Source: Actinomycetes bacterium (GTDB lineage Bacteria; Actinomycetota; Acidimicrobiia; Acidimicrobiales; Palsa-688). From it: DNA of 5,288 nucleotides. The DNA lies in NCBI GenBank assembly GCA_021816565.1, contig JAKAXN010000331.1, positions 1-5,288 of the forward strand, written 5' to 3'. The notes below the pieces were generated by a model. It searched no databases. It saw only the letters and a list, made by a program, of their open reading frames with translations, and was not told where the DNA came from. Of this stretch, positions 1,269-5,288 are shown in pieces (the first letter of the stretch is position 1; each line of letters opens with the position of its first letter). The position numbers and the translations under genes are program-made.

Positions 1269-1297
1269 CTCGTCATAGTCCTTCGCTGAGGCGTTGA
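1269..1297. other. Head-to-head junction of two 5'-truncated transposase genes
   Basis: Within these bases the minus-strand istA frame and the plus-strand IS256 frame meet, each lacking its beginning. IstA-like codons run to about 1283 on the minus strand. IS256-like codons (SFAEALMSAEA) begin about 1279 on the plus strand, directly after an in-frame TAG at 1276-1278. No terminal inverted repeat, leader or promoter of either element is visible between them. A deletion that removed both 5' ends, or illegitimate joining of two fragments, explains this better than insertion of one intact element into the other. Confidence 0.6.
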
Positions 1298-2430
1298 TGT
1301 CGGCCGAGGCGCAGGCGCTCTGCGGTGCCGGCTACGGGGAGGTCAGCCCGGAGCGGATCAACAGCCGCAACGGCTACCGGGCCCGGGAGTTCGACACCCG
1401 GGCGGGCACGATCGAGCTGGCGGTGCCGAAGCTGCGCAAGGACAGCTACTACCCGGGCTGGCTGCTCACCCCCCGCCGGCGGGCCGAGCAGGCCCTGACC
1501 CAGGTAGTGGCCCAGTGCTACATCGAGGGGGTCTCGACCCGGCGGGTGGACGACATCGTGCGAGCCATGGGCATCGACGGGATCTCCAAGTCCCAGGTGT
1601 CGCAGATGGCCAAGAGCCTCGACGGCCAGGTCGAAGCGTTCCGGTCCCGGCCGCTCGACGCCGGCCCCTACACCTACCTGTGGCTCGACGCGCTGACCCA
1701 GAAGGTGCGTGAGAGCGGCCGGATCGTCAACGTGGCCGTGGTGGTCGCCACCGGCGTCAACGCCAACGGGAACCGCGAAGTGCTCGGCATGGACGTCATC
1801 ACCACCGAAGACGGCGCCGGCTGGCTGGCCTTCCTGCGCTCCCTGGTGGCCCGCGGCCTGTCGGGTGTGCAGCTGGTCATCTCCGACGCCCACGAGGGTC
1901 TCAAGGCGGCCATCGAGTCGGTCCTGGCCGGCGCGTCGTGGCAGCGGTGCCGGACCCACGCCATGCGCAACCTCCTCACCCGGGTCCCCAAAGCTTCCCA
2001 GGCCATGGTCGCCACCTTGGTGCGGACCATCTTCGAGCAGCCGGACTCCAAGCAGGTCTGGGCCCAGCACGCCCGGGTCGTCGAGCAGCTCACCGACCGC
2101 TTCGCGGACGCCGCCAACATGCTCATCGACATGGCGCCAGACCTGCTCGCTTTCACCGCCTTCCCGGTCGAGCACTGGACCGCCATCCGCTCCAACAACC
2201 CCCAGGAGCGGCTGAACAAGGAGCTCCGCCGGCGCACCGACGTGGTCGGCATCTTCCCCAACCGGGCCGCCGTCATCCGCCTCGTCGGCGCCGTGCTCGC
2301 CGAACAACACGACGAGTGGGCCGTCGCCCGGCGCTACATGTCAGCAGAGACCCTCACCAAGGCCCGCATGCGCGTCATCGACGGAGAACCCGAGGAGGTG
2401 ATACAACACCAACTGACCGAAGCCGTGTAG
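1294..2430 (+). pseudogene. IS256-family (mutator-type) transposase, 5'-truncated, catalytic core intact
   Basis: This is a DDE transposase of the IS256/mutator family. Counting from the TTG at 1294, the conserved block NSRNGYR lies at 23-29 and VPKLR at 44-48. The catalytic aspartates are D132 (WLDAL) and D198 (VISDAH), the conserved C-R-T-H is at 219-222, and the catalytic glutamate is E305 within NNPQERLNKE. The end is complete (TAG at 2428-2430). Relatives I know are somewhat over 400 residues. Here only 378 can be read from 1294, and the homologous frame is closed by TAG at 1276-1278, so roughly 35-50 N-terminal residues are missing. A GAGG at 1288-1291 sits five bases before the ATG at 1297, so a shortened protein could still be made, but without part of its DNA-binding region. 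It is clearly a different subtype from the IS256-type gene at 2725. Confidence 0.88.
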
Positions 2431-2705: not shown

Positions 2706-2713
2706 GAGGAAGG
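2706..2713 (+). promoter_or_regulatory. Ribosome binding site of the second IS256 transposase
   Basis: GAGGAAGG is a strong Shine-Dalgarno-like sequence. It is eleven bases before the ATG at 2725 and overlaps the in-frame GTG at 2713, which rules out that GTG as the start and favours the ATG. Confidence 0.6.
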
Positions 2714-2724
2714 TGGACATACTG

Positions 2725-3540
2725 ATGACTGCAACACTGGAAGATGTGGCCAAGAAGAAGCCGGCGGAGCTGTCAGCGGAGCAGCAGGCGGCGGCCGAGC
2801 TGGTCCGGATGGCCAAGGAGCAGGGCCTGTCGCTGACCGGCCCGGACGGGCTGTTGAAGCAGCTGACCAAGTCGGTGATCGAGACCGCTTTGGATGAGGA
2901 GATGACCGACCATCTCGGTTATGCCAAGGGCGACCGGGCCGGGATCGGCGCGGAGAACATCCGTAACGGCACTCGGTCCAAGACGGTGCTGCCGGCGAAC
3001 ACGGGCCCGGTGGAGATCGACGTGCCCAGGGACCGGGCGGGGACTTTCGAGCCGCAGATCGTCAAGAAACGCCAGCGCCGCCTGGGCGAGGTCGACGAGA
3101 TCGTCCTGTCCCTGTATGCGAAGGGGCTGACCACGGGGGAGATCTCGGCGCACTTCGCGGAGATCTACGGGGCGTCGGTGTCGAAAGAGACCATCTCGAG
3201 GATCACCGACCGGGTGGTCGAGGAGATGACCTCCTGGCAGGCCCGGCCCCTGGATGAGGTGTACGCGGCGATCTTCATAGACGCGGTGGTGGTCAAGATC
3301 CGCGACGGCCAGGTCGCCAACCGGCCCATCTACGCCGCGATCGGCGTCAGCCTGGACGGCGAGAAGGACATTCTGGGCCTGTGGGCCGGCACCGGCGGGG
3401 AGGGCGCCAAGTTCTGGATGGCAGTCCTAACCGACATCAAGAACCGGGGTGTCCGCGACATGTTCTTCGTGGTCTGCGACGGCCTGAAAGGCCTCCCCGA
3501 GGTGGTCGGGAACGTGTGGCCCCAAGCCACGGTCCAGACC
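2725..3540 (+). pseudogene. IS256-family transposase, 5' part, interrupted by an IS110 element
   Basis: The first 272 codons of a mutator-type DDE transposase. From the ATG at 2725, the N-terminal region with GLLKQLTKSVIE (42-53) and DHLGY (62-66) is typical of this IS256 subgroup. It is followed by NGTRSKTV (81-88), a helix-turn-helix-like segment with GLTTGEIS and SKETISRI (134-160), and catalytic D186 (FIDAVVVKIRDG) and D252 (VVCDGLKGLPE). Homology stops after T272 at base 3540, where IS110 DNA begins. The open frame continues to a TAG at 3778-3780, but those 80 extra residues are translation of non-coding IS110 sequence and its leader. The expected continuation (CIIHLIRNTF) is found in the correct frame at 5048. 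The catalytic glutamate would lie in the right part beyond the window, so the gene as it stands is inactive. Confidence 0.93.
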
Positions 3541-3541
3541 T
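3540..3541 (+). other. Left core dinucleotide CT of the insertion site
   Basis: C3540 is the last base of IS256 codon T272 (ACC) and T3541 is the first base of the next codon (TGC) in the empty site. The same CT recurs at 5046-5047 at the other junction. This is the signature expected of exchange at a CT core. Confidence 0.75.
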
Positions 3542-3607
3542 CGTTAGTTCACAGTGGTGGCGCCCGGAGTGGTTTCGGGTGTCATCCGCATCGACGGGAG
3601 AGAGCCA

Positions 3608-3638
3608 GTGCAGACCGACCTTCGAGGTCCCGATGCAG
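3608..3638 (+). promoter_or_regulatory. Target-binding guides of the bridge RNA
   Basis: The left guide at 3608-3616 and right guide at 3632-3638 flank the apical hairpin 3617-3629. Both register exactly on the CT core of the actual insertion site: the left guide ends at the core C, and the right guide ends in AG, complementary to CT. A direct repeat of TGCAGACC (3609-3616 and 3634-3641) overlaps both guides, so a second copy of the left-guide-like sequence exists. The order guide-hairpin-guide makes the first copy the likely left guide. Confidence 0.78.
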
Positions 3639-3675
3639 ACCTGTTCCTCCCGTTGGTGACGGACCTCGAACTGCG

Positions 3676-3707
3676 AACTGGAGTCGCGCTGTGAGCGCCA
3701 TTACGAG
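3676..3707 (+). promoter_or_regulatory. Donor-binding guides of the bridge RNA
   Basis: The left donor guide at 3676-3685 and the right donor guide at 3703-3707 flank the hairpin 3686-3698. They match the joined ends of the circularised element (...AACCGGAGT-CT-CGT...), again in register with CT. The right guide is only five bases, and beyond it the match is poor (next base mismatched), so it is the weakest of the four. Confidence 0.72.
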
Positions 3708-3737
3708 TGACGGTGGTGGTCTGTCGGCGCGGGTGAG

Positions 3738-4385
3738 TCAACCTCGAAGAGGAGGCTCGACGGGCACCCGACCGGAGTAGCCGATCCGACCGCAGAAGCC
3801 GGCCATGCGGGCCTCGCCGACCCGCCCGGCAGCTTGAGGGGTGGGATAGTCCCGCAGGAAGGCCAAGGTGGCGTCACGGTCGACGGTAGAGAATAGGGCC
3901 ACCACCGCAGGGTGATACGCCAGGAGCGTCTCACGCAGCTGCGCCTCCACTGTGATCTGCGACTCGCAACACTGGCGGCGATGGCGGACAACCGCCCGCA
4001 ACTCGGCATGCAACATGCTCGGCACCCCAAGCGACCGCCACCGCCACCCGTCAGTGCGCAGAGCGTCGGCCAACACGAAGGCATCGAAGCGGTCGTTCTT
4101 GCGGACGGCGGCCTGATAGCGCTCCCGGGCCCTCGCTGAGGTGCGGGGACTGACCGGGAACACCCTCAGCTGATCCTGCTGCAGACGTTCCACGAGCAGA
4201 CCCTCGCTGCGTTCGATCGCCACCCCGACCAGATCGTCCAGGCAGGTCAGTGACCCGATCAGCTCGTCGATGCCTTCACGGTCATGGACGAACCGACGGT
4301 TCCAGACCTCTCTTCCCTCCGGGTCGACCACCGCCACCTGATGGTGGGCGCCGCCCCAGTCGATACCAGCAAACAGCTGTGACAT
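3738..4385 (-). pseudogene. IS110 recombinase N-terminal DEDD half, inverted inside its own element
   Basis: The N-terminal RuvC-like catalytic domain of an IS110 transposase, reading from ATG at 4385-4383. The acidic tetrad is complete: D9 (GIDWG), E58 (IERSEG), and D98 and D101 (KNDRFDAFVLAD), at almost the same spacing as in IS621. Later residues include FLRDYPTPQA and the conserved GEARMAGFC. Genuine sequence ends near VPVE (3756-3767); four more codons read inverted leader and then TGA at 3740-3738. It lacks the whole C-terminal domain, which lies on the opposite strand starting next to its start codon. A GAGGAG at 4395-4390 (minus strand) is correctly placed as ribosome binding site, so the fragment might be translated if transcribed. 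It has lost its original position after the bridge RNA. A half protein with DEDD but no serine domain should not recombine alone. Confidence 0.9.
3749..3758 (+). repeat. Left arm of the inverted repeat at the inversion boundary
   Basis: GAGGAGGCTC at 3749-3758 matches the reverse complement of 4386-4395 (GAGGAGCCTC) in 9 of 10 bases. The inverted block 3759-4385 lies exactly between the arms. On the plus strand this arm still follows the original leader (ACCTCGAA), so it marks where the ribosome binding site and start codon of the intact gene would have been. Confidence 0.75.
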
Positions 4386-4944
4386 GAGGCTCCTCGTCAG
4401 TCGGTTGCGCACCCATCTGCTCTCGGCGTCGACGGGCAGCGTGAACGGTCACTGTTTCGCCGCGTTGGCCCTGGCCGACCAGCTGCAGCTACTCAACGAT
4501 CAGATCCGCCGATACAACCGGCGGATCGACGAGCTCTTGGCCGATCATCCCGACAGTGTCGTGTTCTCGAGCTTCCCGGCGGTGGGTCGCATCACCGCAT
4601 CCGAGCTGTTGGCTGAGATAGGCGAGGACCGTTCCCGCTTCCCGACCGTTGACGTGTTGTTGGCCGAGGCTGGAGCGGCGCCAGTGACGCTGGCCTCAGG
4701 GAAGGTGCAGCGGGTTCGGATCCGCTACGCATGCAACAAGCGGCTGCGTTCGACCACGACGAGCTGGGCCTACACCCTGAAGCGGATCGACCCTGTCTCC
4801 CGTCGCCGCTACCAGAGCGCGGTCGAGCGTGGCGCTACCCAACACGGAGCGCTGCGATCAGTGGCCGCCAGCTGGCTGCGCGTCCTGTGGCGCTGCTGGC
4901 AAGACGCCGCTCCCTACGACCCGTCCCGGCACCGGCCCAGCTAA
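4384..4944 (+). pseudogene. IS110 recombinase C-terminal (Tnp/Transposase_20) half
   Basis: The C-terminal part of the same IS110-type recombinase, on the plus strand and ending at TAA 4942-4944. Counting from the ATG at 4384, a helical, probably coiled-coil linker runs at about 28-54 (LQLLNDQIRRYNRRIDELL). The Transposase_20 region follows: SFPAVGRITASELLAEIG (63-80), FPTVDVLLAEAGAAPVT (86-102), then ASGK with S105 as the probable catalytic serine. The end, SWLRVLWRCWQ...PYDPSRHRP, is the family's usual C-terminus. True homology begins at about residue 4; the ATG arises from the inversion boundary and has no convincing ribosome binding site. Together with the inverted half this adds up to about 390 residues, normal for the family, so both halves come from one gene. 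Confidence 0.9.
4386..4395 (-). repeat. Right arm of the inverted repeat, doubling as ribosome binding site
   Basis: GAGGCTCCTC on the plus strand reads GAGGAGCCTC on the minus strand, immediately before the ATG of the N-terminal half. It is therefore a ribosome binding site (GAGGAG, four-base spacing) as well as an inversion arm. The other crossover lay within codons, so its complement belongs to the internal coding site. Confidence 0.75.
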
Positions 4945-5031
4945 CCGCCTCCCGCAACCGACTGAACCGGCATCGGGGTTGTTCAACGCGCCCAAGAGAG
5001 CTTCCAGCGAGACGGCTCCACGCGCCCAGGG

Positions 5032-5037
5032 TTGACA
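5032..5037 (+). promoter_or_regulatory. -35 hexamer of a probable circle-junction promoter for the bridge RNA
   Basis: TTGACA is a perfect -35 consensus ten bases before the right element boundary, pointing outward. In an excised circle it would be followed across the CT junction by the left end. A weak TTCACA (3548-3553) would then start 16 bases after it and could serve as a -10. IS110 elements are known to form such promoters when their ends join, driving bridge RNA and recombinase. In the integrated state the same hexamer points into the IS256 remnant with no good -10. The -10 is poor, so this is a moderate-confidence call. Confidence 0.5.
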
Positions 5038-5045
5038 ACCGGAGT

Positions 5046-5047
5046 CT
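5046..5047 (+). other. Right core dinucleotide CT of the insertion site
   Basis: Bases 5046-5047 are CT, preceded by the element end GGAGT and followed by the IS256 continuation GCATC. Together with 3540-3541 it accounts for every base of the restored IS256 frame. Confidence 0.75.
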
Positions 5048-5288
5048 GCATCATCCACCTGATCCGCAACACCTTCCGCCTCGCCAGCCGCCGGGACTGG
5101 GACGCCCTCAAGAAGGACCTGCGACCCATCTACACCGCGGTGAACGCCGATGCCGCCCTGGCCGCGTTCGGGGAGCTCGCCGACAAGTGGGAGCAGCGCT
5201 ACCCGGCGGTCATCCGGCTGTGGGCGAACGCCTGGGAAGAGTTCATCCCGTTCCTGGACTACGACGTGGAGATCCGCAAAGTGCTGTG
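5048..5288 (+). pseudogene. IS256-family transposase, 3' part, continuing beyond the window
   Basis: The frame starting TGC ATC ATC at 5048 reads CIIHLIRNTFRLAS and onward for 80 codons with no stop to the window edge. This is precisely the segment following the VQT residues that end the left part at 3540. Joining 3540 (or 3541) to 5048 restores the reading frame without loss or gain, showing clean insertion rather than decay. The segment contains the conserved RLWANAWEEFIPF region that precedes the final catalytic glutamate of IS256 transposases, which must lie past 5288 if retained. There is no start codon or ribosome binding site of its own. Confidence 0.92.

Follow-up and report, generated by a model that had tools for sequence, protein, structure and literature searches.

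The window, a 5,288-nucleotide stretch of actinobacterial DNA, contains a gene for an IS256/Mutator-type transposase that is interrupted by a second insertion sequence. Read from the window and Pfam, the gene starts at 2713, stops at 3541 and resumes at 5048. Its 5' part (2713..3541, plus strand) matches Pfam Transposase_mut over residues 26-276 (E 1.3e-84), and its 3' part (5048..5288, plus strand), which leaves the window, matches positions 252-331 of the same profile (E 2.3e-21). The profile runs on across the insertion, the upstream part reaching 252 and the downstream part resuming from 252, and the reading frame of the host gene across the junction is V-Q-T^C-I-I-H. Between the two parts lies an IS110-family element of 1,506 bp, identified by reading the sequence (3542..5047, plus strand); this length starts at the base behind the left core CT (3540-3541) and includes the right core CT (5046-5047). 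Its right end is 103 bp long (4945-5047). Eight related elements or element types, a set that excludes the window and locus L002, are 1,486-1,562 bp long, and the left end up to the recombinase match measures 200-276 nt (excluding the value for L018). From its sequence, the element is very probably an IS110-group insertion sequence with a bridge RNA in its left end.

The surrounding genes appear to be nested insertion-sequence wreckage. A second IS256-family transposase (1294-2430, plus strand), of a type that reads W-Q-R, is missing its first part and lacks the V-Q-T site; it carries the codon block targeted by two of the related elements described below (L020 and L021). It adjoins an integrase-core/Mu-transposase-C protein on the minus strand (135-1268; rve, Mu-transpos_C_2), which is probably IS21-like.

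The recombinase gene of the element is divided between the two strands. The RuvC-like DEDD half (3738..4385, minus strand, 215 aa) matches Pfam DEDD_Tnp_IS110 (E 1.5e-29) and the other half (4384..4944, plus strand, 186 aa) matches Pfam Transposase_20 (E 3.2e-15), whereas in relatives both domains belong to one protein, about 394 aa long where intact. The directions of the open reading frames, the domain halves and the junction letters indicate that the first half of the gene lies in an inverted segment of about 634 bp (3756..4389, minus strand; ends within a base or two). P0001, a 90% relative, scores 168 bits against the NCBIfam model 'IS110 family RNA-guided transposase', for which the cut-off is 140; the halves in the window score 85 and 79 bits, each below that cut-off. 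The first-pass annotation of this DNA had described the element as carrying a bridge RNA, which agrees with our reading, and made no mention of the inversion. As read here, the window copy has a broken recombinase gene with the predicted RNA and both ends intact, and it probably cannot move unless another copy supplies the recombinase. With its recombinase gene in two parts, this copy should not be presumed active.

Nucleotide searches with positions 3530-4440 gave one short match in plasmids (80% identity over 8% of the query) and none in phages; with no close DNA relative from these searches, the crossover of the inversion cannot be placed exactly. One explanation is that the inversion is a chimera of assembly or amplification and that the real copy is intact. 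Inverted chimeras arise from amplified DNA, and 15 of the 17 related loci have a full-length, colinear recombinase match (L002 and L021 match in part). However, a typical inverted chimera has one junction, while here two junctions fit a reciprocal exchange and both half-genes are open, and we regard a chimera as rather unlikely. Alternatively, the recombinase of the element could itself have inverted the segment at donor-like sites. Both junctions read GGAG-N-CT-C (3751-3758, and the complement of 4386-4393), like the donor GGAG-T-CT-C, and IS621 is reported to invert DNA between opposed sites (PMC11208160). Nevertheless, a simple exchange at CT would not yield the two junctions and, at the same time, the frame read in intact relatives (P0001), GGAG is common in ribosome-binding sites, and the inverted word common to the two ends of the inversion is an ordinary 6-bp match, equalled in 92 of 228 comparable boxes. 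We consider it very unlikely that the recombinase of the element made the inversion.

The putative bridge RNA consists of a 5' stem-loop (3564..3578) followed by a target-binding loop with its closing stem (3593..3654, internal hairpin 3617-3629) and a donor-binding loop with its closing stem (3658..3725, internal hairpin 3686-3698), all on the plus strand. Six pairs of the 5' stem-loop are kept in nine of nine sequences, with two-sided changes, and the two loops are predicted from local folds and comparative pairs. Folding z-scores are -4.28 for the target loop (3590-3660), -2.57 for the donor loop (3658-3726) and -3.35 for 3542-3729. The 5' hairpin and two guide loops had been proposed from the letters alone; local folds and comparative structure bear this arrangement out, except that the donor closing stem reaches 3725 rather than ending at 3724. 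The donor loop is absent from the whole-region minimum-energy fold and appears locally and comparatively. The consensus predicted from nine RNAs contains the 5' hairpin and both loops, with 38 pairs; in 19 of them both partners change in one sequence or more, as counted on the very alignment that yielded the prediction. The covariation term contributes -5.78 of the consensus energy of -46.91 kcal/mol, and some pairs of the donor loop and the outer target loop are broken in one to three of the nine sequences. A scan of the window with Rfam release 15 returned three chance-level matches up to E 10, none of them over 3542-3729. We rejected assignment to the IS1111 type, because the RNA lies in the left end and not in a long right end.

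Four candidate guides can be read in the two loops. The left target guide (LTG, gtgcagacc, 3608..3616, plus strand) agrees with the flank GTCCAGACC at 8/9 positions including the first core base, or 7/8 without the core. The right target guide (RTG, gatgcag, 3632..3638, plus strand) is the reverse complement of CTGCATC, at 7/7 positions with the core and 5/5 without. In the donor loop, the left donor guide (LDG, 3676..3685, plus strand) agrees with the right end at 9/10 positions, the odd one being G-U compatible (8/9 without the core, or 9/9 with G-U), and the right donor guide (RDG, acgag, 3703..3707, plus strand) agrees with CTCGT at 5/5 positions with the core and at 4/5 over the five non-core bases. 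These guide coordinates and match counts, first given in the first-pass annotation, proved right when the sequence was read again. Together the four guides fit the empty site of the IS256/Mutator gene and the joined ends of the element, following the register published for IS621. In that register the 5' side of each loop pairs with eight or nine bases of the bottom strand, and the 3' side with four to seven of the top strand (PMC11208160).

Matches of this length can arise by chance, and the register was chosen in knowledge of the flanks. When the 200-nt left end was dinucleotide-shuffled 20,000 times, with thresholds of 7/8 for LTG, 7/7 for RTG, 8/9 for LDG and 5/5 for RDG, single guides were frequent for LTG (4,256) and RDG (8,558) and were found 270 and 523 times for RTG and LDG; any single guide match is weak evidence. 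The target pair alone appeared in 11 shuffles and the donor pair alone in 40. All four guides in order and spacing were found in 0 of the 20,000 shuffles, on which we rejected chance guides, and all four in order in 0 of 195 other 200-nt stretches of the window on both strands. Among relatives, moreover, the guides differ according to flank and end while their offsets stay nearly constant, and the structure is shared. It is therefore extremely improbable that the matches reflect chance or an after-the-fact register.

Relatives were collected by scanning genome contigs with the joined protein, which gave three loci, and by whole-genome searches with P0001 as the query, which gave more. A plasmid search returned 20 records, of which four were used; a second Pseudonocardia plasmid (H3) and H6-H20 were left out, as were L004-L006, which duplicate L001-L003. 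A protein search reported 2,389 proteins. The recombinases compared are 49-73% identical to P0001. In viral contigs, the joined protein found no relative and the exact RNA pattern had no match, while a search with alignment A1 gave one relative at 37%.

An IS256-type gene is present on both sides of the element in all 17 related loci tested, which come from ten genomes or plasmids (tblastn with the IS256 proteins of the window as queries). In 15 loci of the V-Q-T type the upstream gene part ends at residue 276, the same as in the window, although L002 reads A-Q-T. The other two, L020 and L021, are of the W-Q-R type and break at residue 218 of the other IS256 transposase of the window, that is, at homologous codons with changed guides; the host gene of L020 is itself in several pieces. 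Six more distant relatives (36-39% identity) gave no IS256 match at E 1e-5, with only about 140-245 bases on one side available for L011, L012 and L013; L007 and L008 (27% and 23% identity) were excluded from this flank test. Two of the loci hold unusual forms of the element. L002 (about 2773-3390) is an element of about 0.6 kb with the RNA and both ends and only recombinase residues 5-102, perhaps a non-autonomous deletion form. L021 (2254-5146) is 2,894 bp long with its recombinase match in three pieces, and probably has a further insertion inside.

In one genome, G400, the element is present eight times, every copy scoring 391.8 bits; the eight insertions occupy separate places and fall in four different IS256-type genes. 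The flanks of these genes share 53-82% ungapped identity between genes, and all eight copies lie at the same cut site. L016, L017 and L055 are in one gene, and L018, L056 and L058 in another. L017 and L018 (contig 1, 1750714-1758969) lie about 4 kb apart in two different IS256-type genes and form a nested repeat island. In a published table for Mycolicibacterium hassiacum (Table 1 of PMC10832570), two IS110 starts follow an IS256 start by 842 bp and two others precede one by 1,463 bp. These repeated offsets are what the same insertion site would give, and they suggest that this arrangement has been sequenced before.

We tabulated flanks, ends and guides for 14 rows, including the window. In V-Q-T insertions LTG reads G/A-TGCA-G/A-AC and in W-Q-R insertions TGGCAGCG, and RTG changes likewise. 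RDG reads CGT where the ends start CGTT and CATC where they start CATC. The offsets of the guides are nearly fixed among relatives. This plain contrast between target types and between ends carries the case, more than the p values that follow. Permutations were run on nine RNA/guide types, omitting L015, L018, L057, L019 and L054, which have the same guides as L016. Own pairings of target guides and flanks score 103 against a permuted mean of 81.9 (p 0.0004), made up of LTG (64 against 51.1, p 0.008) and RTG (39 against 30.8, p 0.0006). Donor guides and ends score 115 against 92.3 (p 0.00005, the lowest value that 20,000 permutations can give), with LDG at 73 against 63.0 (p 0.0003) and RDG at 42 against 29.3 (p 0.0005). 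These p values are indicative, since the guide patterns were set by eye with the flanks in view and the guide types are related, and two target classes and two clades supply most of the signal, so that few of the events are independent. The first-pass annotation had pointed to such a comparison of relatives, and across the nine RNA types the target guides vary with the type of target, of which there are two, and the donor guides with the ends of the element. Its bridge-RNA reading is supported by these changes, and the structure and recombinase domains fit; its description of the system as apparently undocumented holds for this element, but the mechanism itself is published (PMC11208160, PMC11208158, PMC11187229).

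The left end lies directly 5' of the recombinase gene in intact relatives, and it might be mainly the leader of the recombinase mRNA, with the protein alone picking the target. Against this, the target guides differ between V-Q-T and W-Q-R insertions, the donor guides follow the ends, and it is known that both IS110 and IS1111 elements make use of RNAs of this kind (PMC11208160, PMC11187229), so that a leader acting without guide function is highly improbable.

The 12 V-Q-T rows, which share guides and are not independent, contain 12 LTG mismatches between guide and target, nine of them at third codon positions; of the other three, L002 has one at position 2, in what reads as an Ala codon, and L003 and L053 have theirs at position 1. 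RTG likewise has 12 mismatches in these rows, every one of them at position 2, 3 or 5 among the five right-hand bases; there the codons are degenerate or switch between Val and Ile.

The junctions in the 14 rows read N-T on the left and C-T on the right. Seven of the left junctions have C before the core T and five have G, while T and A occur once each. The invariance of the core T and C-T is partly imposed by the search, which located the right end by the pattern GAGTCTG and the left end by start words beginning with T. The variable first core base on the left fits top-strand cleavage 3' of the core as well as the GT, AT and TT cores reported for IS621 (PMC11208158). The dinucleotide AC (3639-3640), next after RTG, could act as a handshake guide to the donor GT; it fits but is invariant. 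Candidate handshake bases of the donor loop match the target in 10 of the 14 rows, the exceptions being the window, L001, L002 and L009. In L003, L015-L018, L053, L054, L019, L020 and L021, the bases after RDG fit the two pre-core bases of the target (AC or CG) and change with it; the window's own clade does not fit.

In a 21-row tree, in which the window is represented by the N-half only, the rows that sit in IS256 genes, together with four protein rows of unrecorded site, are separated from six others with support of 100/100. The W-Q-R pair joins the Nocardia row, the Mycolicibacterium-plasmid row and three further V-Q-T rows with support of 91/93, which is below the program's star. This grouping makes it likely that guides were re-aimed within the lineage.

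In the proposed mechanism, the recombinase, where it is made, would bind the bridge RNA. The target loop would pair with the V-Q-T-C codons of an IS256-family transposase gene and the donor loop with the end-to-end junction of the circular element. Strand exchange would take place at a core with a fixed T, the other core base being free to differ in the target. The analysis itself shows that the guides are complementary to target and donor, that among relatives this complementarity shifts as targets and ends do, that the RNAs have a structure in common and that 17 of 17 related loci tested are inserted at one homologous position of IS256-type genes; transcription of the RNA, pairing and catalysis are inferred.

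The bridge RNA of IS621 and other IS110 elements is alike in its position in the left end, its 5' stem-loop and two loops, its guide lengths (eight or nine bases on the left, four to seven on the right), its nearly invariant core T and its recombinase with RuvC and Tnp domains (PMC11208160, PMC11208158). However, IS621-like elements are found in REP repeats (PMC11208160, PMC11208158), whereas the target here consists of codons inside IS256-type transposase genes. The IS621 recombinase has 328 residues (PDB chain) compared with about 394 aa in intact relatives of the window element, sequence similarity between them is weak (E 5.1e-6), and the split recombinase of the window copy is also unlike IS621. 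IS4321/IS5075, which use the ends of Tn21-family transposons, and IS1383, which uses those of IS1384, are likewise described as DEDD-type elements specialised on another mobile element. In contrast to the present case, their reported targets are terminal inverted repeats rather than transposase coding sequence. The seekRNAs of ISEc11 and ISXne4 also come from related elements with naturally changed guides and targets (PMC11187229), but both target types here are homologous codons of two subfamilies of one transposase family.

With a probability of roughly 75%, this is an actinobacterial IS110 lineage whose bridge RNA specialises it in disrupting IS256-family transposase genes at a single conserved block of codons, with guides re-aimed between subfamilies at homologous codons: an RNA-guided transposon parasite that tracks the conservation of its prey's protein. 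It looks like an IS110 lineage that lives in IS256 elements, of which a limited literature search, mostly of open-licence papers, returned no description. The bridge-RNA system is already known, and the dedicated transposase target is the part worth following. If this reading is true, the guides would read codons that the transposase can hardly change, so that the prey could not easily escape by mutation, and the lineage would have switched guides between prey subfamilies. It would offer naturally re-aimed guide pairs with their targets in place, along with tolerated mismatches and changes of the first core base, and would be a case of one transposon controlling another.
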